A DNA stretch of 23,345 nt from a virus: IMG/VR virus record IMGVR_UViG_3300017956_005733, positions 1 through 23,345 of that record; one strand, written 5' to 3'. Below are positions 4,084 through 21,572 of the stretch, in pieces. How positions within the stretch are numbered: the stretch's first letter is position 1; every line of letters starts with the position of its first letter. The position numbers and the translations under genes are program-made. The notes below the pieces were generated by a model. The model worked only from the letters and a program-made list of their open reading frames with translations. It searched no databases and was not told the origin of the DNA.

Positions 4084-4494
4084 ATGCAAATTGTAGATTT
4101 AGACGGCAATACTCAAAATTGGTCATTAACTGGACATATCGCAAAAGGTCAGATGAAAAATAAATCTGATCTGCATCTCAAAGCTCGTCAATTAATTAAA
4201 GATACTTTTCCTACCATGCAGATACTGGAGGAAGTCGGCATACCTTTAAGATATGGTACTACTTTATTTTTAGATTTTTATGTACCATTACTAAAATTGT
4301 GTATTGAAGTAAATGGTGAGCAACACTATAAGTTCATTCCATTTTTTCATGGCACACAGTTAAATTTTATGAAACATAAAAGAAGGGATAGGGAAAAAAG
4401 GGATTGGTGCGATATCAATGATATCAAAATTATTGACTTGCCTTATGACGAATCTGTGGTACAATGGGGTGAAAGGCTGAACATACATGAGTAA
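4084..4494 (+). CDS. Vsr/DUF559-like PD-(D/E)XK nuclease
   Basis: A 136-residue protein with the compact fold signature of Vsr-like nucleases: the strand LFLDFYVP with D64, then CIEVNGEQHY with E75, E79 and H81, and a helix with D102 (KRRDREKRDW) followed by the last strand IKIIDLPYDE. It lacks an added DNA-binding domain and sits between the recombinase and the UvsY-like gene, so it is more likely a resident recombination or repair nuclease than a mobile one. Substrate (nick, branch or mismatch) cannot be read from sequence. One base separates it from recA, and it overlaps the next gene by 8 nt. Confidence 0.75.
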   Translation: MQIVDLDGNTQNWSLTGHIAKGQMKNKSDLHLKARQLIKDTFPTMQILEEVGIPLRYGTTLFLDFYVPLLKLCIEVNGEQHYKFIPFFHGTQLNFMKHKRRDREKRDWCDINDIKIIDLPYDESVVQWGERLNIHE

Positions 4495-6435: not shown

Positions 6436-7564
6436 TCAAACGCAACTTAAAAATTTGTGCGACCTAGCTTGTGATGATATTGAAAAATTATTGGAAGTGC
6501 TGGGCGTTGAAGATTACAGAATGACAGATAAGATGGTGCTTTGTAGATGCCCCATTCACGAAGGAGACAATCACTCAGCCTTAAATCTTTATTATACAGG
6601 AGATATGTATAGGGGTAATTGGAAATGCAGAACACACAACTGTGAAGAAGTATTCAAATCTTCTATCATTGGTTTTGTTAGAGGTGTGTTATCTAGACAA
6701 CAGTATGAATGGTCGGAATCTGGAGATAAAACAGTATCGTTTAAACAAGCCGTAGAATTTATCCTTAAATTTTTAAATAAAGACCTCGATAGCATTAATA
6801 CAACAAAGTCAAGTAGTGTGGACAACTTTGTATATATAGCTAAGAATTTTAGCAAAAATACGCAATCCGAACAAATGAAATTAGACCCGCAGCAAGTTAA
6901 GCGGTCATTGCATATACCTGCTCAATACTACCTAGATAGAGGCTATTCTAGGGAAGTATTAGAAAAATATAGTGTCGGCCTATGTGACAACCCCAAGAAA
7001 CCATTTTATAATAGAGTAGTAGTCCCAGTATATTCAACAGATGGAATGTATGTTACCGGATGCACAGGTAGAAGCATACATTCACAATGTTCTAGTTGTA
7101 AATCTTACCACCATCCAAACAAACAATGCCCAGAACCCAACAAAAGATGGATTTACTCAAAATGGAAGCACAATCAGAATTTTCAATCACAAAACAATTT
7201 ATACAACTTTTCTTTTGCCAAACCTTATATCAAGGATACAAAAACAATAATTTTAGTTGAAAGCCCAGGAAATGTGTGGAGGCTCGAAGAAGCTGGCTTG
7301 CATAACAGCGTTGGTTTATTTGGCTCTTCTTTGAGTAACTATCAGAAACTCTTGATAGATTCTTCTGGAGCTATGAACATTGTGGTATTAACGGACAATG
7401 ATGAAGCTGGTCATAAGGCATATCAACAAATTCAAGAAAAGTGTAAGGACATATATCGCATATATAGACCGGAGTTTGATGCTCCTGATATTGGAGAAAT
7501 GAAAATAACAGATATACAAAATATAATCTTACCTCAATTAGAAAAAATTTATGAGCAATACTAA
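6401..7564 (+). CDS. dnaG: DNA primase with CHC2 zinc domain and TOPRIM
   Basis: A 387-residue primase. The zinc-binding domain has C50-P-I-H53 and C76-x4-C81. The TOPRIM domain has the catalytic E287 in ILVESPGN, a GLFGSSLS loop and the metal-binding D332-N-D334 followed by EAGHKA. Between them is an extra Cys/His cluster (QCSSCKSYHHPNKQC) that may hold a second zinc. It makes RNA primers for the polymerase encoded downstream. It is shorter than bacterial DnaG because it lacks a C-terminal helicase-binding domain. The start may be ATG 6401 or ATG 6413; both lie inside dnaB and neither has a clear ribosome binding site. Confidence 0.9.
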   Translation: MNSLMKQSTSYSQTQLKNLCDLACDDIEKLLEVLGVEDYRMTDKMVLCRCPIHEGDNHSALNLYYTGDMYRGNWKCRTHNCEEVFKSSIIGFVRGVLSRQQYEWSESGDKTVSFKQAVEFILKFLNKDLDSINTTKSSSVDNFVYIAKNFSKNTQSEQMKLDPQQVKRSLHIPAQYYLDRGYSREVLEKYSVGLCDNPKKPFYNRVVVPVYSTDGMYVTGCTGRSIHSQCSSCKSYHHPNKQCPEPNKRWIYSKWKHNQNFQSQNNLYNFSFAKPYIKDTKTIILVESPGNVWRLEEAGLHNSVGLFGSSLSNYQKLLIDSSGAMNIVVLTDNDEAGHKAYQQIQEKCKDIYRIYRPEFDAPDIGEMKITDIQNIILPQLEKIYEQY

Positions 7565-9207: not shown

Positions 9208-9816
9208 ATGAAAAAAGAATTAGATATTTTAATAGTTGGCTCTGGAGGTAGTGGTCAGAGCTATTTCATGAAGCAATTAGGTAAAAATTTTATAACCAAT
9301 TCTGTTGGAGATAATGATGGGCTTAAGCACAGTAGCAGCCCCAATAATCCTAAATTAGCAAATTACAAAGTAAACAAGTGTATTTTCTTATATAATAAAT
9401 CTTTTGAATGTATATGTTCTTTTTACAGAAGAAATCCAAGCTGGTCGTGGTTGCAAGTGGTAAAGCTTGGAAACGCACAAAAACTGAAACCTGCAAATCT
9501 GGCCAATGCCGATAGGTTTTTTTCTCTGGTCGAAGAAAGAAATTGCGATTTGTTTTCCATAGAACATCAATTTGAAAATTGGATAAATGCAGATACCAGT
9601 TTCCCGATTTATTTTGTTGACTTTAATAATATTGATACAGCAAAACTGTCTTCTTTCTTGTGTTGTGATGAGAACATCTTATCTTTTGACGTAAAACCCA
9701 GACGAGAATATCCAGAACTTAGCAACAAATATCCTAATGCTTATTCTCTGTATCAAGATTTAGACAACAAAAAACAAAGATTGGCACAAGAAGCAAACAG
9801 AAAACAGGGGCTGTAA
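9208..9816 (+). CDS. Sulfotransferase-like P-loop protein
   Basis: A 202-residue protein with the N-terminal strand and loop DILIVGSGGSGQSYFMKQLG, resembling the PAPS-binding loop of sulfotransferases. KCIFLYNKSFECICSFYRRN matches the strand-helix in which sulfotransferases bind the 3'-phosphate, and FENWINADTSFPIYFVDFNN resembles the later 'w...p...v.yE.l' segment. The substrate is unknown; phage sulfotransferase-like genes usually occur with surface-sugar or small-molecule modification genes. Its position between a nuclease and the polymerase is unusual. It has a strong ribosome binding site and overlaps the polymerase gene by 1 nt (TAATG). A plain P-loop kinase is a less likely alternative. 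Confidence 0.55.
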   Translation: MKKELDILIVGSGGSGQSYFMKQLGKNFITNSVGDNDGLKHSSSPNNPKLANYKVNKCIFLYNKSFECICSFYRRNPSWSWLQVVKLGNAQKLKPANLANADRFFSLVEERNCDLFSIEHQFENWINADTSFPIYFVDFNNIDTAKLSSFLCCDENILSFDVKPRREYPELSNKYPNAYSLYQDLDNKKQRLAQEANRKQGL

Positions 9817-11693
9817 TGACAAGTAACAATAGTTATGTTCCGTTGCACGTTCATAGTCACTATTCTTTATTAGACGGCCTAAGTAGGCCGAAGCAAATTG
9901 CTCAAAGATGTGTTGACATAGGAGTTAAGAGCTGTGCGATAACGGATCATGGAAATATAGCAGGTGCTGCACAAATACACTCAGCACTAAAGTCTAAAGG
10001 AATTAAACCCATTCTTGGTTGCGAACTATACATTTGCGATAAACACGCATCTATTAAAGATAAAAGCAATGCTAAATTAAGTCATTTCTTAGTCTTGGCA
10101 AGAAATCTGCAAGGTTGGAATAAATTAGTCAATATTATTTCTGAATCTAATAAGCCAGATTTTTTTTACAAAAAACCTAGAATTAGTATGCAGCAACTGG
10201 CTGAGATAGTAGATGATAATCTTATTGGTTTTTGTGGACATCTCGGCTCTTACATTGCAAATAAAATTATAGATAATGACACCATAGTTCCTAATTGGGA
10301 AGATATTGCTTATGATGAAATATCAATGCTCAAAAATATATTTGGTGAGTATTTCTTTCTAGAAGCACAACTAATGGATTATGAATTAAATCCGATACAG
10401 AAGGAACTAACAGAATGCATCAGAATTATAGCCCAAAAAACAGGAGTCAAAGTTATTTGCACCCCAGATGCTCACTATGCTAACCAAAAAGACGCTATTG
10501 ATCAAAGAATACTTTTATGCAACAACCTCAAAACAACTTTGCCAGAGATTAATCGTAAACTCGCCAATAATGAAGATGTGCCAATGTCTACATTTTTCAT
10601 TAGTGACAAATACTACATTCTTTCAGGAGACGAAATGTCTGAACTGCATCCGCAGGAAGAAATAGACAATACTATTTATGTAGATAGTTTATGTGAAGAA
10701 TATGACATCAATCATGCCCCTAGACTTCCACCATTTCAATCGGAATCGGCTCCAGACGAATATTTAAGGCAATTATGTCGAGAAGGGTGGAGGAATAAAA
10801 TAGCAAAAAAAGTAGATGAATCGTTACACCAAAAGTACGCGGATAGAATCAAATATGAGCTATCTATTTTACAAACTGCTGGCTTGTCTAGCTATTTTTT
10901 AATAGTGTCCGATATAGTCAAATATGTGAAGTCTCAGGGGTGGTTAGCTGGACCGGGCAGAGGTAGTGCTGCTGGTTGTTTAGTCTCTTATCTGATTGAT
11001 ATTACGTCTATCGATCCAATTAAGCACGATTTAATATTTGAGCGTTTTTATAATGCAGGAAGAAATACCACAAATCGTGTTTCCATGCCTGATATTGACA
11101 TGGATGTGCCTATTAATCAAAGAGAACAAGTGATTGATTATATTAAAAATAAATACGGATCTGATAATGTATCTCAAATGATTACTTTCAATACTCTCAA
11201 AGGGCGTGGTGCCTTAAAGGATGTATTAAGGGTGTATGGGGATGTATCTTTTGATGAAATGAATCAGATTACCAAGCATATTCCAGACGAAGCTAAGATA
11301 GCAGACGAATTAGAAGAAATGAAAGACGAGCACGGAGACGCTTCAATTATTAGGTGGGCTCTGGAAAATAGGGTTGACAGCCTTGAGAATTGGTGTTATA
11401 TTGATAAGGAGGGCAATCTCGCAGGGCCGTTCGCAAAAAGGTTCGAACAAGCCATGAGGCTAGAAGGAACCAAGGTAAATCAATCAAAACACGCTGCTGG
11501 GGTTGTGATAACAGACCAAAAATTAGAAAAAATATGTCCAATGATTTTTGATACAAAAACTAAACAACCAATTGCCGGTATGGAAATGAACGACTTAGAA
11601 TATTTGGGTATCATTAAGTTTGATGTTCTAGGCATTGCAATGTTAGACAAAGTAATGAATATTAGTAATACACTTAGGTATGGAGAATTATAA
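9816..11693 (+). CDS. dnaE: DNA polymerase III alpha, N-terminal half (PHP and palm)
   Basis: A 625-residue first half of a bacterial-type C-family replicative polymerase. The PHP domain (about residues 5-290) has VPLHVHSHYSLLDG, AITDHGN, LGCELY, GFCGHLGS and CTPDAHY, so most metal ligands appear present and it may have phosphoesterase activity. The palm begins around residue 340, with GPGRGSAAGCLVSYL, the catalytic pair D426-I-D428 in MPDIDMDV, and the third catalytic Asp D603 in IIKFDVLG. The protein stops 22 residues after D603, before the fingers, which are encoded at 12560. No intein sequence is present at the end. The product must pair with the C-terminal half to work. Confidence 0.95.
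   Translation: MTSNNSYVPLHVHSHYSLLDGLSRPKQIAQRCVDIGVKSCAITDHGNIAGAAQIHSALKSKGIKPILGCELYICDKHASIKDKSNAKLSHFLVLARNLQGWNKLVNIISESNKPDFFYKKPRISMQQLAEIVDDNLIGFCGHLGSYIANKIIDNDTIVPNWEDIAYDEISMLKNIFGEYFFLEAQLMDYELNPIQKELTECIRIIAQKTGVKVICTPDAHYANQKDAIDQRILLCNNLKTTLPEINRKLANNEDVPMSTFFISDKYYILSGDEMSELHPQEEIDNTIYVDSLCEEYDINHAPRLPPFQSESAPDEYLRQLCREGWRNKIAKKVDESLHQKYADRIKYELSILQTAGLSSYFLIVSDIVKYVKSQGWLAGPGRGSAAGCLVSYLIDITSIDPIKHDLIFERFYNAGRNTTNRVSMPDIDMDVPINQREQVIDYIKNKYGSDNVSQMITFNTLKGRGALKDVLRVYGDVSFDEMNQITKHIPDEAKIADELEEMKDEHGDASIIRWALENRVDSLENWCYIDKEGNLAGPFAKRFEQAMRLEGTKVNQSKHAAGVVITDQKLEKICPMIFDTKTKQPIAGMEMNDLEYLGIIKFDVLGIAMLDKVMNISNTLRYGEL
11374..11402 (+). promoter_or_regulatory. Possible internal sigma-70 promoter
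   Basis: Inside the N-terminal polymerase gene, TTGACA (11374-11379) is followed after exactly 17 bases by TATATT (11397-11402), 11 of 12 consensus positions. It would direct transcription of the small gene, the exonuclease and the second polymerase half. It lies in coding sequence of an AT-rich genome, so a chance match is possible. Confidence 0.3.
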
Positions 11694-11881: not shown

Positions 11882-12563
11882 TAAACAAAAAATTTGTGTT
11901 TTTGATTTGGAAACAGACGGATCCGATCCAGAAAGCTGTGATCCCGTACAGATTGCTGCAATTATGGTAGATCCTATAAAGTTAGAAATTATTCCAGACT
12001 CTGAATTTAATATCAACTGTAAACCCTTGATATTAGATAAAAAGAAAGACTATGCTTATGAAGATAGCGATGTGTTAGACTTTCATGCAAAAGTTTCTAA
12101 TTCTTCAAAAGACAAAGTATTAGCTACTTGGCATAATTATCCCAAGCAATCTGCTAGCTGGAAAATGTTTGTTAGTTATCTGGAAAAGTATCATACAAGA
12201 TCAGCTAGAAAAAATCAGTTTTCAGCCCCTATTGCTGCTGGATATAACATAAACAAATTTGATCTTAGAATATTGCAGAGACTCAGCAAAAAATATAAAA
12301 ATGTTAATAAGGAGGGGAATTCTGACCTATTCTATCCTAGAGATGTCATAGATATTATGAACCTACTCTTCTATTGGTTTGAATCAAACGATGAGTTGCA
12401 AAAATATACACTTGATCATTTTCGTGATTACGTGGGTATTTCCAAAGAAGGTGCTCATGACGCCCTTAAAGACGTTAAAGATTCAGCAGAAATTCTAATC
12501 AGATTTTTAAAATTACACAGGAACCTTTCGCAGAAAATTAAATTTAGAAATTCTTTTGTATGA
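11874..12563 (+). CDS. dnaQ: DnaQ-like 3'-5' proofreading exonuclease (DEDDh)
   Basis: A 229-residue exonuclease. Exo I is VFDLETDG (D11, E13), Exo II is GYNINKFDLRIL (D130), and Exo III is AHDALKDVKD (H195, D200), giving the complete DEDDh set. It should remove misincorporated 3' nucleotides as the epsilon-like partner of the polymerase. There is no obvious alpha-binding tail like that of E. coli epsilon, although the C-terminus is basic. It is encoded between the two polymerase halves and overlaps the second half by 4 nt (ATGA), which argues that all three proteins belong to one holoenzyme. Confidence 0.92.
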   Translation: MANKQKICVFDLETDGSDPESCDPVQIAAIMVDPIKLEIIPDSEFNINCKPLILDKKKDYAYEDSDVLDFHAKVSNSSKDKVLATWHNYPKQSASWKMFVSYLEKYHTRSARKNQFSAPIAAGYNINKFDLRILQRLSKKYKNVNKEGNSDLFYPRDVIDIMNLLFYWFESNDELQKYTLDHFRDYVGISKEGAHDALKDVKDSAEILIRFLKLHRNLSQKIKFRNSFV

Positions 12564-14179
12564 AATATTATACTTTTGATTGCGGTTGCAAGTTTAGGTT
12601 GTTAGAAGAAGAGTCTGACAGGGAAATTCCTTTATTAGATTTTTCTTTGAATTTAGAAAATCTAAATTTGGAATGCAAAAAAACCTGGGATTTGATATCG
12701 TCGGGCAATACCAAAGGTTGTTTTCAGTTAGAGTCCAGACTTGGCAGGTCGATGGCCAAAAAATTACAGCCATCTAATATAGAACAGCTTTCTGCTCTTA
12801 TTAGTATCATGAGACCCGGTTGTTTAGAGGCTATGAGAGATGGTAAGAGTGTTAGTAATCACTTTATCGACAAAAAGAATGGTAAAGAAAGTATAGACTA
12901 CTTTGATTCATGTCTAGAGTCTGTTCTATTGCCCACATATGGGGAAATGATATACCAAGAACAAGCCATGGAAATTGCCAGAATTGTTGCTGGTTTTGAT
13001 TTGCAAGAGGCTGATGTTCTAAGAAAAGCAATTGGAAAGAAAAAGGTTGATCTTATGGCAAAGGTTAAAAAATCTTTCCTGGATGGTGCTAAAAAAACTA
13101 AAGCAACATCCATTGAAAACGCTAAAGAAATTTTTGGTTGGATTGAAAAAAGTCAGAGATACAGCTTCAACAAGAGTCATGCCATCTCTTATGCCTATAA
13201 TGGCTATCTATCCGCATATAGCAAAGCTCATTTTCCTAAAATATTTTTTGCTTCCTATCTTAAATACGCTAAAGATAAAATAGACCCTCAACAAGAAGTC
13301 AGGGAATTGGTACAAAACGCAACAGAAATGGGTATAGAAATCAGCGTTCCTGTGCTTTCCTTTATGAATAAGCATTTTTGCATTAAAGACAACAGGATAC
13401 ATTTTGGTTTAACAGATATTAAGAATGTTGGTGATTCTGTATTTAAAAAACTACAGAACATTACTCAAGAAAACGACCTATCTAATTTATCGTGGTCTCA
13501 GTGTTTATTCTTTATATTAGATAAAATTACATCTACAGCAGCCAAAGCTTTAATTTCTTGTGGAGCTTTGGACAAGTACAATAAACCCAGAACAGAAATG
13601 TTGTTTGAGTACGATGCTGTATTAGAATTAACAAAAAAAGAAAAAGAATATATATGCAGCCTAGATCTTTTTGAGTTTAATTTAATTGATATACTCAACA
13701 TATCTCTCAAAAAACCCAGATTAAACACAAACAGAAAAGGTGTGATTAACAATTTAATTCATACGCTAGAAAATCCTCCCTATTCTCTCGCAGATAAGAT
13801 AGAATGGATATGTGATACAGAAACAGACCTACTAGGTATTAATCTCACGCATTGTCGTTTAGATTCATATAATATGAGTAATACCAATGCTGAATGTAAA
13901 GATATCACAGGACTCCAACCCGGTGCTAAAATTATAATGGGTGTTGAGGTAGATAATTTCAATATTGTGAAAATAAAAAATGGTCCAAACAAAGGTAGCG
14001 ATATGTGCTTCATGACAGTTAGAGACAGCACCGGATCATGCGATTCTGTTATTTTGTTCACAGAGCAGCTTACCTTGTATAGAAATGAGCTGTTTGAGGG
14101 AAATATTATTATCATACAGGGTAAAACTGCCAAAAACGGTGGTATAGTGCTAGATAAGATATACAAACCCAGAGGTTGA
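12560..14179 (+). CDS. dnaE: DNA polymerase III alpha, C-terminal half (fingers to OB)
   Basis: A 539-residue second half of the C-family polymerase. Homology resumes near residue 26. KGCFQLESRLG (F55-S59) and ALISIMRPG match the start of the fingers of DnaE, followed by PTYGEMIYQEQAMEIARIVAGF, ADVLRKAIGKKK, RYSFNKSHAISYAYNGY and HFPKIFFASYL. ISCGALDKY marks the helix-hairpin-helix region, and the last about 100 residues form an OB-fold (GAKIIMGVEVDNF to GIVLDKIYKPRG). A tau-binding tail is absent. The two halves total 1164 residues, close to E. coli alpha (1160). The first 25 residues, with C8-G-C10, are an addition not found in ordinary DnaE. Confidence 0.94.
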   Translation: MKYYTFDCGCKFRLLEEESDREIPLLDFSLNLENLNLECKKTWDLISSGNTKGCFQLESRLGRSMAKKLQPSNIEQLSALISIMRPGCLEAMRDGKSVSNHFIDKKNGKESIDYFDSCLESVLLPTYGEMIYQEQAMEIARIVAGFDLQEADVLRKAIGKKKVDLMAKVKKSFLDGAKKTKATSIENAKEIFGWIEKSQRYSFNKSHAISYAYNGYLSAYSKAHFPKIFFASYLKYAKDKIDPQQEVRELVQNATEMGIEISVPVLSFMNKHFCIKDNRIHFGLTDIKNVGDSVFKKLQNITQENDLSNLSWSQCLFFILDKITSTAAKALISCGALDKYNKPRTEMLFEYDAVLELTKKEKEYICSLDLFEFNLIDILNISLKKPRLNTNRKGVINNLIHTLENPPYSLADKIEWICDTETDLLGINLTHCRLDSYNMSNTNAECKDITGLQPGAKIIMGVEVDNFNIVKIKNGPNKGSDMCFMTVRDSTGSCDSVILFTEQLTLYRNELFEGNIIIIQGKTAKNGGIVLDKIYKPRG

Positions 14180-14250: not shown

Positions 14251-14631
14251 ATGAATATAGCTTTAATCAAAGGTAATCTGGCTAGAGATCCAATTGTTCG
14301 ATCTGTTCAAACTAGTAGTGGTAAAAATACTTCAGTGGTCAATTTTACTATTGCCACATCCAGAGAGTATACTAAAAATAATGGACAAAAGGATAAGATT
14401 AAGTCTTTTATTCCGTGTGAGGCTTGGGACACTGGAGCCGAAATTATAGGAAATTCTTTTAGCAAGGGTGACTTAGTTATGGTCGAGGGGTCAATTAGAA
14501 ATGATAGCTGGGAGAAGGATGGTGTTAAGCATTCAACTCTTAAGATCAGGGTTAATAATTTTTCTAAGATAACCAAGCTGTCCAACGACAAGAAAGAAGA
14601 AGCGGAAGAGGATACCGTTGCTGCCTTCTAG
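14251..14631 (+). CDS. ssb: Single-stranded DNA-binding protein
   Basis: A 126-residue bacterial-type SSB. The OB-fold starts MNIALIKGNLARDPIVRSV and continues with VVNFTIATSREYT, SFIPCEAWDTGAEII, KGDLVMVEGSIRNDSW and STLKIRVNNF, all in the order seen in E. coli SSB. A short acidic tail (KKEEAEEDTVAAF) ends in Phe, recalling the DDDIPF tip through which SSB recruits partner proteins. It coats single-stranded DNA at the fork and in recombination. Unlike its neighbours it has its own promoter, leader, ribosome binding site and terminator, so it can be made at higher or different levels from the replisome enzymes. Confidence 0.95.
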   Translation: MNIALIKGNLARDPIVRSVQTSSGKNTSVVNFTIATSREYTKNNGQKDKIKSFIPCEAWDTGAEIIGNSFSKGDLVMVEGSIRNDSWEKDGVKHSTLKIRVNNFSKITKLSNDKKEEAEEDTVAAF

Positions 14632-14684: not shown

Positions 14685-16355
14685 ATGAAACGAGACCGAC
14701 TCAAAATTTTAATATGCGGAGAAGCTAGTTTTCTAGACTCTGGCTATGCTGTTTATCAGCACAGACTTTTAACTAAATTGTCTCAAAATCCAGCCTTTCA
14801 TGTGGCCGAACAAGCGGGCTATAGTTGCATTAATGATCCCAGAGACACAAAATGCAACTGGAGATTTTATGCTAATGCTGTCAGAGATAACGATCCAAGA
14901 ATAAAACTGTATCAATCCAATACACAAAATTCCTTCGGGAAGTGGAGATTTGATGCTGTTGTTGCAGATTTCAGACCTGATGTTGTGATAGACATAAGGG
15001 ATTTTTGGATGAATTCTTTTCAAAGATTATCCCCATTGAGAGAATGTTTTCATTGGGTATTAATGCCAACAATAGACTCTATGCCACAAAAAGAAGAGTG
15101 GATAGACACATATATGAATTGTGATGCTATTTTTACATATTCTGATTGGGCTAGAGATGTGTTAAATAATCAAAGTTTTGGTCAAATTAATTATATAGAT
15201 ACATGTTCTCCTGGATATGATTCTGAATTTTTTGAGTTTACTGGAGGAACGGCTAAAAAAGCCTCTAGAAATTTAATGGGTATAAGTGATGACAGTATCA
15301 TAATAGGTACTGTCATGAGAAACCAAAAGCGAAAACTTTTTGCAGAGCTTATTAGGGATTTCAGAAAATTATTAGATCATCTGAAAGCAGAGGGTTTTGA
15401 TCAATGCAATAATATTTTCTTATATCTTCACACAAGCTATCCGGATTTCTTGTGTTGGGATATACCAGACTTATTGAGAGAATGTAGGGTGTTAAATAAA
15501 ACTTTATTTACCTACAAGTGTGAAAAATGTAGCCACATTCAGTCGTGTTTATATTCTGGCCCAATGACCCTATGCAACCACTGTAAGCAGAAATCAGCAT
15601 CTATGCCCACAGTCTCTAAAGGCGTTACCAGACGACAATTAGGACTAATATATTCTCTCTTTGATATGTACGTGCAGTATTCCATATGTGAAGGTTTTGG
15701 AATGCCTCAGATAGAAGCTGCTTCTTGCGGTGTTCCAGTTATGGCTGTTAATTATAGTGCTATGGAAGATGTGATCAAAAAGCTAGACGCATATCCAATC
15801 GATTTGGCTTACAAATTTAGAGAACTTGAAACATTTGCAGATAGAGCATATCCAAGCTCTGATTCTTTTATAAGAAATATTAAATCTTATTTATCTTTAG
15901 ACGAAACACACAAACAGCTGAAAAGTCTCAGTTTTGCTCATGGATGCTACAAGCAGTATCAATGGGATCATAGTCTAGACAAATGGGAAAAATATTTAAT
16001 GTCCCTCTATAATAATGGTTATAAGGCTGATTATCGTAAACCGAGAATACCAATTAGTCCAATCACTAAACATGAAATAAACAGCTTGTCTAATAATACA
16101 GATATAATAAGATATATGTTTGATAGATTAGCTCCTTTTAACTTAAAGAGTTATACTATGCTAGATATGTTAAATAGGATTAATTATGGTTATGTCATTG
16201 ACAACGGTAGGCAACAAAACTTTAACATAGACATGGCTCTTAGAAATGTGAATATTTTAATTGATAACTATAATTATAGCATTGAATTAATTAATAGTGA
16301 TATGACGCAACACGAAGACTATATTCAATATGCTAACATGAAGGATCCCATATGA
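14685..16355 (+). CDS. GT4-family glycosyltransferase with zinc-ribbon insertion
   Basis: A 556-residue GT-B enzyme. The N-terminal domain begins LKILICGEASFLDSGYAVYQ and ends near CSPGYDSEFF. The donor-binding domain starts with IIIGTVMRNQKRKL and carries the E-x7-E motif (E336 to E344) in CEGFGMPQIEAASCGVPV. Inserted in this domain is a zinc ribbon, C279-x2-C282 and C297-x2-C300. After about residue 450 comes a helical extension with no known match. It should transfer a sugar from a nucleotide-sugar donor; the acceptor (virion protein, host glycan or DNA) is unknown. It follows the ssb terminator directly and overlaps the next gene by 4 nt. Confidence 0.85.
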   Translation: MKRDRLKILICGEASFLDSGYAVYQHRLLTKLSQNPAFHVAEQAGYSCINDPRDTKCNWRFYANAVRDNDPRIKLYQSNTQNSFGKWRFDAVVADFRPDVVIDIRDFWMNSFQRLSPLRECFHWVLMPTIDSMPQKEEWIDTYMNCDAIFTYSDWARDVLNNQSFGQINYIDTCSPGYDSEFFEFTGGTAKKASRNLMGISDDSIIIGTVMRNQKRKLFAELIRDFRKLLDHLKAEGFDQCNNIFLYLHTSYPDFLCWDIPDLLRECRVLNKTLFTYKCEKCSHIQSCLYSGPMTLCNHCKQKSASMPTVSKGVTRRQLGLIYSLFDMYVQYSICEGFGMPQIEAASCGVPVMAVNYSAMEDVIKKLDAYPIDLAYKFRELETFADRAYPSSDSFIRNIKSYLSLDETHKQLKSLSFAHGCYKQYQWDHSLDKWEKYLMSLYNNGYKADYRKPRIPISPITKHEINSLSNNTDIIRYMFDRLAPFNLKSYTMLDMLNRINYGYVIDNGRQQNFNIDMALRNVNILIDNYNYSIELINSDMTQHEDYIQYANMKDPI

Positions 16356-17227
16356 TTTCTTATGTCAAAGAATATAGTTCTGAGTTAATCAATACTATAT
16401 CACAAGAAGTTGCAAATATATTAGGCGCAGACCAAAATCATCTTCTTCAATTTAATTTATATAACAATATTGTTATTTCAAATATTTTTGATATCAATAT
16501 TAGTATCCCTAACACTCCTTCGCACATCGCTTCTCATCAAATTTCTAACAAATACAGATTTATAGATAAGATTTTTGTCTTTAATAACCACGAAGCAAAT
16601 CAATACAAAGAATACAATCCTCAGATATTAGATATACCCATCAGAAATAATTCTGAAATTTTACTAAATAATTTCAATAGACACAAGTTTTATAAGTTTG
16701 CATATGTTGGTAACCTAGAATATGATTTGCCTATCATCAGCAATTTATTGTATTCTTTTACAAAATCAGCTATGAAAAACAATAATATTTCTATGTCACT
16801 GTTATTAGAGTCTGATCAAAAAAGTCTAACGAATTTTAAAAATCAATTTTATCAACAAAACAACCTAAAAGATTTATTAAATCACAGAATATATTTTATG
16901 TGTCAAGATCAAATAACGCAGCACACCAAAGAAACGTTTATAAATAGTATTGATTCTCTAGTATACGCAACAACAAGAAGCACAGACAACTATCTTCTCT
17001 ACTACGCCCTATGCAACAACACAAAAGTTTACTCGCCAATAAAATATTTTGATGATATATCTACCATAGACTCACACCCAAGCGTTATTTATGAAGCACA
17101 TGAAGATATCATATATCAAACACCATGTATACAAAATCTCATAGATATATTCTCACATCCAAAAAAATCACAAAAAAATAGTGAAAAATTTTTAACCTCT
17201 GGCATACAAAATTACTTTAAATCATGA
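16352..17227 (+). CDS. unknown protein, weakly glycosyltransferase-like
   Basis: A 291-residue, very Asn/Ile/Tyr-rich protein without a recognised family. The segment FAYVGNLEYDLPIISNLLYSF resembles the first strand-loop-helix of the second GT-B domain, and SIDSLVYATTRSTDNYLLYY recalls the region of glycosyltransferases that precedes the donor-binding helix, but the E-x7-E motif is missing. It may be a degenerate or highly divergent glycosyltransferase. ATGA overlaps link it to both neighbours. The DNA is notably AT-rich: bases 16741-16800 contain 13 G or C in 60. Confidence 0.65.
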   Translation: MISYVKEYSSELINTISQEVANILGADQNHLLQFNLYNNIVISNIFDINISIPNTPSHIASHQISNKYRFIDKIFVFNNHEANQYKEYNPQILDIPIRNNSEILLNNFNRHKFYKFAYVGNLEYDLPIISNLLYSFTKSAMKNNNISMSLLLESDQKSLTNFKNQFYQQNNLKDLLNHRIYFMCQDQITQHTKETFINSIDSLVYATTRSTDNYLLYYALCNNTKVYSPIKYFDDISTIDSHPSVIYEAHEDIIYQTPCIQNLIDIFSHPKKSQKNSEKFLTSGIQNYFKS

Positions 17228-18003
17228 TAGATATATATAACCATCTATACAAAAATTTTGATAAAAAAATTCTATATATCAAACATAATTCGTCATTTGA
17301 TTTGTTGATGTCAAAAATATTTCCAAATGCAGTATACGCGGATTCGTTAGATAATATTAATTACTATTTTACCTATTGTAGCGTGATATACAATAGTTTG
17401 TTAGAGATTAATAAGAATCAATATCAAGAAATGCTTCAAAGACTAGAGTACTGTAGAGAGAATAGTATATGTTTTGTTCATGATGATGTGGTTTCACATA
17501 CGAAACCAGAAGATCTACAGATTATGTTGAATAATAATAGCGGTCTACAATTAATTAATTTACATCCATCAAATAAAAATGTTATGGGATATACAAAATA
17601 TGGTATACCATATAATAATTTACTAATAAATAAAACATCTAATAAAATACTACTAATTAATCCTGAATATCAAACAGAAGAGATGTTGAAAAAATTCAAT
17701 CTCAAACATGATACGATCACTAGTTTCCATCAGTTTACAAATTATGAAGAATATTTATCTTTCTTATTAAACTATAAAATAGTTGCATCTAATAATATAA
17801 TAGATAGGCTCATAGCGCAATCAGTTGGTTGCTTTACACTTGACCCAAATAGTCTTAATATAGATGATCAGCATCACGAATTTACAAAGTACTACTTTAA
17901 TCCAGTCAACACAGCAAAAATTTCGGATATATTTATTAATTTAAATTTCCATTCTTTTAAAAGAAATATTTTTAATGAAGAAAACACTAAAGATCTCCTG
18001 TAA
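17224..18003 (+). CDS. unknown protein, possible divergent GT-B fold
   Basis: A 259-residue protein without recognised family. It alternates strand-like and helical stretches (KKILYIKHNS, NSICFVHDDVV, NKILLINPEYQTEEMLKKF, YKIVASNNIIDRLIAQSVGC), as expected for two Rossmann-like halves. NNIIDRLIAQSVGCFTLD resembles the helix after the donor site in glycosyltransferases, but conserved acids are absent. It overlaps the previous gene by 4 nt and the next by 29 nt. Composition is as AT-rich as the rest of this cassette. The function is unknown. Confidence 0.65.
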   Translation: MIDIYNHLYKNFDKKILYIKHNSSFDLLMSKIFPNAVYADSLDNINYYFTYCSVIYNSLLEINKNQYQEMLQRLEYCRENSICFVHDDVVSHTKPEDLQIMLNNNSGLQLINLHPSNKNVMGYTKYGIPYNNLLINKTSNKILLINPEYQTEEMLKKFNLKHDTITSFHQFTNYEEYLSFLLNYKIVASNNIIDRLIAQSVGCFTLDPNSLNIDDQHHEFTKYYFNPVNTAKISDIFINLNFHSFKRNIFNEENTKDLL

Positions 18004-18352
18004 AAAACTAGAAGAACTATCTGACATACCAAATTTTTCAGTAATGTGCTTACAATTGCACGATATCGATGAAATAGAAAATAAACATGAAGCCCTAGCC
18101 GCAGCTGTTCAAAAGTTAAGAAAAAATGGAGAAATATTAATTGATTATATTAACATGGACAGAATAATTCGAATGTACACTGATAAAGAAATGTTGTATG
18201 AAGAAGTTTATAACAAAATCAAACAAGCCCCACACCTTACTAAATATGAGGATTTTTTAGAGTTTATAGATCTGAATAATTCTATTTTAATATATAAGGT
18301 AATTGAGCAAAAAACAATAGATATAGTATCTCTACTTAGAACGGGTTATTAA
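17975..18352 (+). CDS. unknown protein, weak methyltransferase-like C-half
   Basis: A 125-residue protein. The stretch VMCLQLHDIDEIENKHEALA, then VQKLRKNGEILIDYINMDRI, resembles the second half of class I SAM-dependent methyltransferases ('...leh..d...al.e..r.Lk.gG.lii...n'), but there is no SAM-binding Gly loop, so it would be inactive alone or a different fold. No sign of a frameshift joining it to the preceding gene was found. It overlaps that gene by 29 nt and is one base from the next. Confidence 0.6.
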   Translation: MKKTLKISCKKLEELSDIPNFSVMCLQLHDIDEIENKHEALAAAVQKLRKNGEILIDYINMDRIIRMYTDKEMLYEEVYNKIKQAPHLTKYEDFLEFIDLNNSILIYKVIEQKTIDIVSLLRTGY

Positions 18353-18353
18353 A

Positions 18354-19052
18354 ATGGATACAAAGTGTTCTTTATGTTGTTTTTTTAATGACATGAAATG
18401 CGATTTTGGGATTGATACCATCCTCAATGATAAAATCTTAAATTCTGAAACAGAAAAACAAATCATATCAGATTATCACTGTAATTATGCTTATGGGATA
18501 AAAACTTACGAGGATAACAAATATAACTTGACATATGAAGAACTTAAACAAAAAATATTAGACAGAAATTCACTAAATTTTGTTTTATATCTGAGACTTA
18601 CAAATGATGTTTTTGATTTCGATAAGTCTATAAATCTTTTGAATGCATTCAGCTTCACGCCTGCCGCTATAATAATTGCCTCAAATGATCTGGCAGACAA
18701 AGATGCCGTGGAACAATTCGGACAACAAATAAATATTCCTTGGAGAATTTCACAAAAACATCCAGATGTGTCTGAGTATGACCTTTTTGCATCGTCATTT
18801 AATCAATATGTACAATATTATCCAGACGCTCTTTTAATAAATGGGTATGAGTGTGACTTAAATAGCTTTGTAAACGAAATTCATATTCGAAGCAAAATTT
18901 ATCAAGATACTATTAAGCAACTAATAGTGGATAAAATGCACAGTAATATTTATATATTTAAGGAGTGTTTTTTTGAAAATAGATATGATTGGAAAACATT
19001 ATTTAATAACCCTGAAGAGTATATTAAAACCATAGAATGTCTAAATCTATGA
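18354..19052 (+). CDS. unknown protein with N-terminal Cys cluster
   Basis: A 232-residue protein. The N-terminus has C5, C8, C9, C16 and C43, which could form a small zinc site. The middle (NFVLYLRLTNDVFDFDKSIN, FTPAAIIIASNDLAD) and PDALLINGYECDLNSFVNEI suggest an alpha/beta fold loosely like a GT-A glycosyltransferase without a clear D-x-D motif. The function is unknown. It lies within the AT-rich cassette and its TGA stop overlaps the ATG at 19049. Confidence 0.62.
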   Translation: MDTKCSLCCFFNDMKCDFGIDTILNDKILNSETEKQIISDYHCNYAYGIKTYEDNKYNLTYEELKQKILDRNSLNFVLYLRLTNDVFDFDKSINLLNAFSFTPAAIIIASNDLADKDAVEQFGQQINIPWRISQKHPDVSEYDLFASSFNQYVQYYPDALLINGYECDLNSFVNEIHIRSKIYQDTIKQLIVDKMHSNIYIFKECFFENRYDWKTLFNNPEEYIKTIECLNL

Positions 19053-19732
19053 TTAATGTAACATTAATAATGACTGAAATTACTAAAGGTATGAAATCTG
19101 TAGGCCCTAAATATATCTACAAATATAAGAATAAAGCTCTAATAGAATATCAGTTGCATTTCTTAAAAAAATATAAAACAAAAATGAATCTTAATTTATT
19201 GGTTGGGTTCGGTTCAGACCGTGTTGAGAAGCAGTTGCAGAAACAGAAAAATATCAAAATAAATTACTTATATAATCCTAATTATACTAATGAAGAAAGT
19301 GGCGGTAATTTTGAAATTGCTATCAATAACTTTAATCCACAGAAAGAATCTGGGCTGTTATTGATCAATAATGGTATTATTGCAAATATTAATTGGGAAA
19401 GATATATCAATAAAATATCTAAAAAGTCTAATATATTGTTTTACACAGATGAGTTGTGCCATAATTTTAACTTGGGATTTACAGATACGGGAGATTATTT
19501 GTTTTATGACCTACCCAACACATGGCTAGAAGTTCTTTATATTTCTAAAGCTTCTGCTATGAGTTTACAAAAGAAACCTATTAGTTCAATTCATAAAAAT
19601 ATGTTTCTTTTTGAGATTATTAACGAAATGAAAAATAATGATTACGCTTTTGAATCGTGTAAAATTCCTGGCAAAAAAATATTTAAATTTAATTCACCTA
19701 AAGATCAAAAAATGCTTTCTAAGTTCTTATGA
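19049..19732 (+). CDS. Nucleotidyltransferase-like (GT-A fold) protein
   Basis: A 227-residue protein from ATG 19049, chosen because it forms the ATGA overlap used by its neighbours; ATG 19037 would add four residues. The layout follows sugar-phosphate nucleotidyltransferases: a first strand INVTLIM, GPKY, YKNKALIEYQLHFLKKY, LNLLVGFGSDRVEKQL, INYLYNPNYTNEESGGNFEI, then GLLLINNGIIAN in the place of the metal-binding strand. The canonical A-A-G-x-G-x-R loop is absent and the usual Asp is replaced by Asn, so it may be inactive or use another chemistry. It could activate or transfer a sugar for the glycosyltransferase upstream. Confidence 0.6.
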   Translation: MINVTLIMTEITKGMKSVGPKYIYKYKNKALIEYQLHFLKKYKTKMNLNLLVGFGSDRVEKQLQKQKNIKINYLYNPNYTNEESGGNFEIAINNFNPQKESGLLLINNGIIANINWERYINKISKKSNILFYTDELCHNFNLGFTDTGDYLFYDLPNTWLEVLYISKASAMSLQKKPISSIHKNMFLFEIINEMKNNDYAFESCKIPGKKIFKFNSPKDQKMLSKFL

Positions 19733-20352
19733 TACTAATATCTAAAACAGAATGTAAATTTTTAAATTGCATAGCTATTGCCTGTCATGAAAATAATATT
19801 CCGTATCAATTTATAGACGTAGAAGATATTTTTATGTATTATGATTTATATTCTCCAAAAATTATATTTATATCTGATAAAGACAAACATAATAAAGCTG
19901 TTCAATTGATAAATTCTACAGAAATTATTAATGTTATTACAGAAAACCATAATCTAGTAAGCGAAACAACGAATATAAAACCTGATACAAAATCTTCTAT
20001 GGTAGCTATGTTTCTAGACGGTATTACAAAAATACCCAAAAATATAGAAGAATTAATATATCCCAAGACCATATCTAGAATTCAGCTGTTTAACTGTTCT
20101 ATTCGACACCCCCAAAATGTCGGCCTGTTAAACGAAATAGATAAATTAAGCATTATACAAAAATATATTGGATTAATAGATTTAACTGGAGAATATAGAG
20201 AAGAGTGTGCAAATTATGGGACATTTTATAGTGATGGCACAGACATGACAACAGACCTGATCAACCGATGGTTTACTGAGCAAAATTGCGACGCGCAAAA
20301 AAGCAACAAAATCACCTATAAAGATTATTTACTGGGATTAATTAATGAGTAG
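19729..20352 (+). CDS. hypothetical protein in the glycan cassette
   Basis: A 207-residue protein without recognised family. The front half is alpha/beta (MILISKTECKFLNCIAIACH, IPYQFIDVEDIF, PKIIFISDKDKH), like a small Rossmann or flavodoxin-type fold. The second half is more polar, with Cys residues at SIRHPQNVGL-adjacent and REECANYGTF positions. No catalytic signature is visible. It overlaps the previous gene by ATGA and the next by 8 nt. Confidence 0.6.
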   Translation: MILISKTECKFLNCIAIACHENNIPYQFIDVEDIFMYYDLYSPKIIFISDKDKHNKAVQLINSTEIINVITENHNLVSETTNIKPDTKSSMVAMFLDGITKIPKNIEELIYPKTISRIQLFNCSIRHPQNVGLLNEIDKLSIIQKYIGLIDLTGEYREECANYGTFYSDGTDMTTDLINRWFTEQNCDAQKSNKITYKDYLLGLINE

Positions 20353-20791
20353 TGATATAGGAATTATTATAGACAATAACAATAATCTTAATACAAAAGT
20401 ATTATCGGAATTATACAATTCATATATTGTAAAAAACAACCTTGATCAATTTATTATTTTTGCGTCTGAACCTATCAGTTTAAATGTTATACCTCAACTG
20501 CCCTTGAGGGATGCTGTTTTTTTTGACGGAGCATTAGTTTTATTTAGCAATAATGCGTTACTCATTGCCAAAGATTTTGTGAATTATTCAAAACTGTTAT
20601 ATGTAATCGAAGAACCAGCATGGACATCAATATCGCAAAATAGCTCTTATAATTCGATAAGAGAATTATATACAGAAACACGGGACTTGTATTTTATAAC
20701 CAGTAACCAAAACATTTATTCTTTGTATACTACTCTGTGGGGGAATAATATCATATTAGGAGATATCAATTATGAAAAAGCAATATTGTGA
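20345..20791 (+). CDS. hypothetical protein at the end of the glycan cassette
   Basis: A 148-residue protein without recognised family. It has repeated strand-like stretches (DIGIIIDNNNN, QFIIFASEPISL, DAVFFDGALVLFS, KLLYVIEEPAW, DLYFITSNQNIYSLYT), consistent with one Rossmann-like domain and reminiscent of the N-terminal half of a GT-B enzyme. No catalytic residues can be named. Its last 20 bases overlap the homing endonuclease gene, whose ribosome binding site lies inside this one. Confidence 0.58.
   Translation: MSSDIGIIIDNNNNLNTKVLSELYNSYIVKNNLDQFIIFASEPISLNVIPQLPLRDAVFFDGALVLFSNNALLIAKDFVNYSKLLYVIEEPAWTSISQNSSYNSIRELYTETRDLYFITSNQNIYSLYTTLWGNNIILGDINYEKAIL
20758..20763 (+). promoter_or_regulatory. 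Ribosome binding site of the gene at 20772
   Basis: AGGAGA lies 8 nt before ATG 20772, inside the end of the preceding gene. It supports this start and suggests that the endonuclease gene is translated independently. Confidence 0.6.
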
Positions 20792-21572
20792 ATTAAATGA
20801 TCAAGAAAAACAAAAAATTATTACTAAGTACTATATTGATCAAAAGAAAAGCTTTCAAGATATAGCTACAGAATACGACACTTATGCCAATAGAATTAGA
20901 AGAGATGCAAAAAAATACAACATTAATATTCGAGATAAGAGTCAAGCACAAAAAAATGCGCTCAAGACAGGAAAGCATAAGCATCCAACCAAAGGTAGTG
21001 TTAGATCAGAAGAAACAAAAAATAAAATAGGAAATTCTGTTTTAAAATCATGGGACAGCCTTACTCCTGATCAAATAAAGAAAAGGAAAGCTAAAAATTT
21101 AGCAGCATGGAATAAATTAACAGATGAGCAAAAACAAAAAATGCAACAAGCTGCCAATAACGCCATAAGAGAAACCAGCAAGGTTGGCTCTAAACTAGAG
21201 AAGTTTTTACTTCAGAAATTTATAGAAAACAAAGTCAATGTGCAGTTTCATAAAGAACAATTTTTAGTAAATACCAAGTTGCAAATTGACCTATTCCTGC
21301 CTAGTATAAATACAGCAATCGAAGTTGACGGCCCTTCACATTTTTCTCCTGTTTGGGGAGAGGATGCTTTTGCTAAGGCTCAACAGTACGATAAGAAAAA
21401 GCAAGGGCTGATTTTAGGAAAAGGATTGGCCCTAATTAGAATTAAACAAACAAAAGATTTTTCTAAAGCTAGATCAGAAATCATTTTTCAAAAACTAATC
21501 CAATTAGTCGATCAGATCAAGACTCAGTTTCCTGAACCAGACAACAGATTTTTCGAAATAGAGGATGTATAA
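20772..21572 (+). CDS. Vsr-like (EDxHD-type) homing endonuclease with NUMOD3-like segment
   Basis: A 266-residue modular nuclease. Residues about 8-50 look like a helix-turn-helix (DQEKQKIITKYYIDQKKSFQ, then DIATEYDTYANRIRRDAKKY). A NUMOD3-like segment (KGSVRSEETKNKIGNSVLKS) and a Lys-rich helical linker follow. The C-terminal catalytic domain has E143 (SKLEKFL), D173 (QIDLFLPS), E184 and H190 (AIEVDGPSHF) and D207 (QYDKKKQ), matching the residue order of the EDxHD family typified by I-Bth0305I. Such enzymes cut cognate genomes and spread themselves. It separates the unknown cassette from the annealing-protein candidate and may have brought neighbouring DNA with it. Confidence 0.82.
   Translation: MKKQYCELNDQEKQKIITKYYIDQKKSFQDIATEYDTYANRIRRDAKKYNINIRDKSQAQKNALKTGKHKHPTKGSVRSEETKNKIGNSVLKSWDSLTPDQIKKRKAKNLAAWNKLTDEQKQKMQQAANNAIRETSKVGSKLEKFLLQKFIENKVNVQFHKEQFLVNTKLQIDLFLPSINTAIEVDGPSHFSPVWGEDAFAKAQQYDKKKQGLILGKGLALIRIKQTKDFSKARSEIIFQKLIQLVDQIKTQFPEPDNRFFEIEDV

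Follow-up and report, generated by a model that had tools for sequence, protein, structure and literature searches.

Glycosyltransferases in which an active enzyme comes with a partner are known from two-component systems such as GtfA-GtfB, where GtfB is a glycosyltransferase-like but catalytically inactive subunit, and EryCIII-EryCII. The latter is described as a heterotetramer in the abstract of PMC3391682, and its EryCII component is a homologue of P450 and not a glycosyltransferase. Among phages, the polysaccharide modification clusters of cyanobacterial jumbo phages also join several glycosyltransferase and sugar-nucleotide genes in large genomes, but these clusters are polymorphic, sporadic even among related viruses and accompanied by epimerases and sugar kinases (Iyer et al., 2021, PMC7824862), and the phage-encoded glycosyltransferases of mycobacteriophages are thought to modify the capsid or tail (cited in PMC12619734, whose passage on them describes no degenerate multi-gene set). 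Here we analyze a cassette of seven genes, g1-g7, at positions 16352-20791 of the IMG/VR fragment IMGVR_UViG_3300017956_005733 (23,345 bases, hereafter the window), which follows a GT4-type glycosyltransferase gene (GT4). The cassette differs from the two-component systems in that there are up to seven candidate partners of several fold classes, and from the jumbo phage clusters in that its gene order does not vary and most catalytic motifs are missing. We favor, tentatively and at somewhat less than an even chance, a coupled assembly in which GT4 is catalytic and g1-g7 are mainly non-catalytic partners, over a set of proteins with no enzymatic role.

A preliminary description of the window had placed seven genes of no recognizable family between the glycosyltransferase and a homing endonuclease gene and had called them an orphan cassette. 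The seven open reading frames do lie there, tightly packed on the + strand and encoding 125-291 amino acids (Table 1), and the window's own seven proteins match no convincing Pfam or PHROG family (g3 has one sub-threshold DUF match), but the cassette is no orphan island: it is a constant trait of a phage lineage, the same order recurring in more than 130 loci. Scanning with the single g1 sequence gave no relatives, and homologues had to be collected first: a g5 scan turned up the same gene order in a close contig, L002, and in a distant one of 187 kb, L003, a GT4 profile search gave 80 loci of 118 relatives, and profiles of g5 and of a downstream protein labeled 'erf' gave further sets. Across the 243 loci compared (L-numbers denote fetched loci or contigs, and many loci are overlapping stretches of the same contigs), the complete order SSB-GT4-g1-g2-g3-g4-g5-g6-g7-endonuclease-erf-zn is present in 130 and the same order minus g4 in 49, the remainder being shorter variants (GT4-g1-x-g3-g5-x, GT4-g4-g5-x or g4-g5 alone) or cut by contig ends. 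When redundancy is removed, 95 genomes are left, of which 50 have all seven genes, 23 are without g4 and 22 carry other sets; g5 is present in 95/95 and in every cassette variant. The order recurs in IMG/VR contigs of up to 244 kb, and none of the isolates among 50,697 phage records carries the cassette, queries with the GT4, endonuclease, 'erf' and g5 proteins returning only distant GT4s of 19-26% identity. The large phages concerned are widespread and apparently uncultured. Among bacterial genome contigs there was one match, a 25-kb contig (L250) that holds the full cassette and is binned in an Alphaproteobacteria metagenome-assembled genome from Lake Lanier, at most a hint of the host. Moraphages, likewise large and aquatic, count several putative glycosyltransferases among their core genes, but we set them aside as the lineage because they carry a family B polymerase (PMC12619734), whereas the cassette lineage has a split PolIII-alpha-like enzyme.

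The junctions between the genes are conserved as well. In the window, 7/8 junctions from GT4 to the endonuclease gene overlap by 4-29 nucleotides, the single exception being a 1-nucleotide gap (18352/18354). Across 132 complete loci, the cassette junctions overlap in 84-100%, whereas SSB-GT4 never does (0%) and the next two junctions downstream of the endonuclease do so in 40-47%, start sites being longest-reading-frame starts and exact junction distances hence approximate. These conserved overlaps suggest coordinated expression of the cassette, as the preliminary description had proposed for the window.

The cassette is poorer in G+C than its flanks (27.5% versus ~35%). Two counts that had first drawn attention to this difference, 13/60 at 16741-16800 and 27/60 at 11281-11340, are exact, and the difference extends to the rest of the window (median of 16 G/C per 60-nucleotide bin in the cassette versus 21 elsewhere; Mann-Whitney p 6e-13). 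Composition nevertheless fails as a mark of foreign DNA: in 59/59 contigs, the cassette has a lower G+C content than the flank upstream of it (median -5.7 points), and low G+C is therefore a property of the cassette genes that does not point to recent transfer. Pairs of g1-g7 copies have median identities of 21-38%, whereas the neighboring genes reach 55% (GT4), 58% (endonuclease), 64% (erf) and 74% (zn). In close pairs, the synonymous rate (dS) is alike inside and outside the cassette, the nonsynonymous rate (dN) is mostly at least doubled inside it, and cassette dN/dS is ~0.04-0.28; the window and L002 show the same pattern, though with dS near saturation, and values at large distances, which are saturated, were not used to judge selection. 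The genes g1-g7 thus undergo faster protein change under purifying selection, rather than allele swapping or decay, and because their order is kept in more than 130 loci and dN/dS is well below 1 in close pairs, we conclude that they are real genes. Low G+C and degenerate motifs might have pointed to a horizontally acquired or decaying pseudogene island, but fixed position and order, the constancy of the low G+C and purifying selection refute this explanation, to which we assign almost no probability.

GT4 is the only member of the set with an intact catalytic signature. It matches PF00534 (Glycos_transf_1; E 1e-8, 35.4 bits against a cut-off of 26.4) and phrog_2170 (2.9e-21), and glutamates E336 and E344 of its E-x7-E motif are invariant (63/63). 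The motif is found in 237/237 full-length GT4 copies, of which 233 fit one pattern and four deviate from it only in what directly follows the motif. Two GT4 genes (L197:2228-5080 and L200:2244-5105) are ~400 codons longer and contain an intein-like insert that begins with Cys, has GLFAADG and GMFMGDG motifs and sits exactly before the catalytic CEG motif. Inteins usually occupy functional sites of needed proteins.

The seven cassette proteins depart from this state in different ways. PF00534 is matched by 8/44 homologues of g1 (best 3.5e-15) and the g1 profile matches GT4 with 93% probability, but E-x7-E is absent from the window copy. The motif is kept in 18/95 non-redundant genomes, in several clades, and is missing from a g1 group (L040/L050/L114) within a supported clade that otherwise retains it, which places at least one loss in an intact clade, in a quick tree with SH-aLRT (approximate likelihood ratio test) support only. 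The g6 profile matches GT4 (81% probability) and g2 (84%) over the motif region, where g6 has a sole conserved glutamate, the nearly invariant E159. Since g6 matches both, g2 is a probable GT-B relative; the g2 and g6 profiles align with 78% probability across a 39-column stretch of the C-terminal motif region, with a longer alignment in another comparison, and none of 46 g2 members has a Pfam glycosyltransferase match. AlphaFold2 (AF2) models were made for g4 and g7 only, both from homologues in L030. Foldseek alone gave no match under E 0.001 for the g7 model (confidence score pLDDT 95.5), whereas a structural aligner placed 140-149 of its 155 residues on GT-B enzymes of 357-376 residues (Z 12.4-14.2 among the top matches). 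At 155 residues versus ~360, g7 does not contain the two Rossmann-like domains of a GT-B glycosyltransferase, and from its length and aligned ends it is probably the N-terminal domain plus the terminal helix, with the nucleotide-binding domain missing.

In g4, cysteines C5, C8, C16 and C43 of the N-terminal domain are invariant. Residues 77-250 of the g4 model (pLDDT 94.6) match GT-A transferases and related nucleotidyltransferases in the PDB (Z 12-13 over 151-167 residues) and are predicted to adopt a GT-A-like fold, the four cysteines lying in the first 76 residues. There is no conserved acidic pair for a DxD metal motif at model positions 164-179, a position judged by strand order and not from a superposed active site. 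The g5 profile matches the CTP:phosphocholine cytidylyltransferase LicC (1jyk, E 5.4e-8), with which it shares fold and sequence profile, but the LicC 'DAD' is mostly replaced by N/S-N/S-G: columns 111, 112 and 113 hold Asp in 5, 0 and 1 of the 78 main-group genomes, respectively, and 4/8 short variants have GD there. The motif 1 region of g5 reads EITKGMKS. Because K20, F192, E193 and N196 are invariant in 95/95 genomes, residue conservation points to a constrained site in g5. For g3, 2/43 homologues match Methyltransf_31 (best E 0.028), too weakly to align the S-adenosylmethionine (SAM)-binding glycine-rich region confidently, and g3 is perhaps a class I methyltransferase reduced to its C-terminal half, with the SAM-binding half missing. 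PDB profile searches with g1, g2, g3, g4, g6 and g7 gave only chance-level or misleading matches, such as pyrroline-5-carboxylate reductase for g2 and LRRTM for g3, which we rejected.

Fold support is thus good for g1, g4, g5 and g7 and moderate for g2 and g6. The folds first proposed for the cassette are accordingly retained as GT-B-like (from Pfam matches of g1 homologues, the g7 model and g6 profiles) and nucleotidyltransferase (g5), the methyltransferase (g3) having weak support, and the lack of key catalytic residues extends across the family for g1, g4 and g5. Such a set of folds would fit a working glycan pathway with diverged active sites that decorates a glycan of the virion or envelope with an unusual sugar or a phosphocholine-like group, and the new invariant site of g5, the intact g1 of 18 genomes and the glutamate kept by g6 are in line with it. 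We regard this pathway as clearly unlikely, given that g4 is without DxD, g5 has lost the catalytic Asp, g7 is without about half of GT-B and the g1 motif is gone in most genomes.

The data suggest one shared protein machine rather than seven separate enzymes. In the assembly that we favor, the cassette would encode one translationally coupled multi-protein complex with GT4 as the active glycosyltransferase, a view drawn from the conserved order and overlaps, the E-x7-E motif in all full-length GT4 copies and the intein-like insert at that motif. The partners g1-g7 would descend from surface-glycan enzymes (GT-B, GT-A, sugar- or choline-type nucleotidyltransferase and perhaps methyltransferase) and would for the most part no longer be catalytic, and GT4 may now use them as acceptor- or nucleotide-binding and scaffolding subunits, by analogy with the non-catalytic partners in some two-subunit glycosyltransferases. 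That they are mainly non-catalytic is argued by the state of g1, g4, g5 and g7, and that they are kept as a set by purifying selection and the fast divergence of all seven together. Interfaces and target would evolve fast, probably because the assembly acts on a glycan of the host envelope or a component of host defense.

Several observations weigh against this assembly. GT4 is not obligatory for g4-g5, because one lineage (L142, L144, L145) keeps the two genes without a detectable GT4. The cassette sits inside a replication operon, an unusual place for envelope glycan genes, and some of g1-g7 may be active, g5 in particular, with its invariant site, since some GT-A and GT-B enzymes function without canonical motifs. 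A second intact GT4 (L248:7152-8210) adjoins an IMPDH-like gene, with genes for a PAP2 protein and a head maturation protease close by, and a GT4-like gene in L246, L247 and L249 has a similar neighborhood of ORF sizes; this enzyme may serve virion glycosylation instead, for which it may be a better candidate than the cassette.

Another explanation is a non-enzymatic set, in which former glycan or nucleotide enzymes are reused as binding proteins (inhibitors, decoys, nucleotide sponges) against host defense or for host takeover and GT4 is a neighbor of separate function. Lost catalytic signatures, the fast divergence of g1-g7, the position in the replication operon and the minimal g4-g5 version without GT4 all speak for such a set, but GT4 adjoins the other genes in nearly all genomes in a rigid order, whereas arms-race genes usually differ in presence and order among relatives, and we consider it rather unlikely. 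It is possible, if doubtful, that the cassette is a pseudoenzyme machine that defines the lineage, with up to seven proteins derived from glycan biosynthesis that lost catalysis more than once, stayed together as a coupled set and act non-enzymatically in infection, as scaffold, in nucleotide or glycan binding or in counter-defense.

The location of the cassette between SSB and recombination-type genes also raises the prospect that phage DNA is glycosylated by GT4 with accessory subunits. A deoxynucleoside monophosphate (dNMP) kinase gene at 7551 of the window is consistent with this, as is T4 alpha-glucosyltransferase among the g7 fold matches (Z ~9.6), although many other GT-B enzymes are among them too. 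However, a thymidylate-synthase-family hydroxymethylase gene was found in 0/15 records of 120-244 kb, which may be incomplete (the control was positive in 9/14 genomes), and this absence makes a hydroxymethyl-base route of the T4/SPO1 type unlikely. Searches for Tet_JBP and Gp23 were negative, but their controls failed too and we give them no weight. Overall, we judge DNA modification to be improbable.

Table 1. Genes of the cassette and its boundaries in the window, with the basis of each assignment
Feature	Position	Strand	Basis or remark
SSB-like gene	14251..14631	+	constant upstream cassette boundary; detected in 242/243 loci
GT4-type glycosyltransferase with inserted CxxC..CxxC zinc ribbon	14685..16355	+	PF00534, phrog_2170; intact E-x7-E
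g1, degenerate GT4-family GT-B protein	16352..17227	+	PF00534 matches of homologues, GT4 profile match, motif table, tree
g2, probable GT-B-like protein without catalytic glutamates	17224..18003	+	profile similarity to g6
g3, ~125-140 amino acids, possibly C-terminal half of class I methyltransferase without SAM-binding half (weak)	17975..18352	+	Methyltransf_31 matches
g4, N-terminal four-cysteine domain and GT-A-like domain without DxD	18354..19052	+	AF2 model of homologue, PDB matches
g5, LicC-like nucleotidyltransferase fold, catalytic Asp replaced, other invariant site	19037..19732	+	profile match 1jyk, residue table
g6, GT-B-like, one conserved glutamate in E-x7-E region	19729..20352	+	profile matches to GT4 and g2
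g7, GT-B relative of about half normal length	20345..20791	+	AF2 model of homologue, structural alignment
NUMOD3 / endonuclease-like gene	20772..21572	+	phrog_559 1.2e-14, phrog_9084 1.9e-8; constant downstream cassette boundary

The gene upstream of GT4 is putatively named SSB from recognition of its sequence. Further 5' are genes for a RecA/UvsX-like protein, a DnaB-like helicase, a primase, the dNMP kinase, an exonuclease and a two-part PolIII-alpha-like polymerase. This polymerase is split in two genes (9816-11693 and 12560-14179) with the exonuclease gene between them, likewise in L002 and L003; jumbo phages with a family B polymerase also have another, different split PolIII-alpha (PMC7824862). 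The upstream 'sulfotransferase-like' gene of the preliminary description was not recovered, an unassigned mid-sized ORF tested there (9208-9816) having no Pfam or PHROG match. Because the endonuclease-like gene at the 3' boundary keeps the same position in 221 loci, it looks domesticated rather than mobile, and it is followed by two conserved proteins labeled 'erf' and 'zn' for convenience only, the former with no Pfam match and the latter with a weak zinc-ribbon match only. A second small homing-endonuclease-like gene (4084-4494) lies directly 3' of the RecA-like gene. Neither Rfam nor tRNA scans returned anything in the window.

A phage glycosyltransferase gene is usually taken to encode a single active enzyme. 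Within the open-access library and the terms searched, the literature describes phage glycosyltransferase clusters and two-subunit glycosyltransferases, and nothing like GT4-g1..g7. Here, a rigid set of one active-looking enzyme and seven degenerate relatives under purifying selection is found in a large, apparently uncultured phage group. If these proteins form one machine, they would represent a new way of building a glycosyltransferase, and if there is no catalysis at all, they would be a large-scale example of pseudoenzymes taken into service as a system. Naturally occurring variants (GT4-g4-g5, only g4-g5, and g1 with and without the catalytic motif) open the question to testing.

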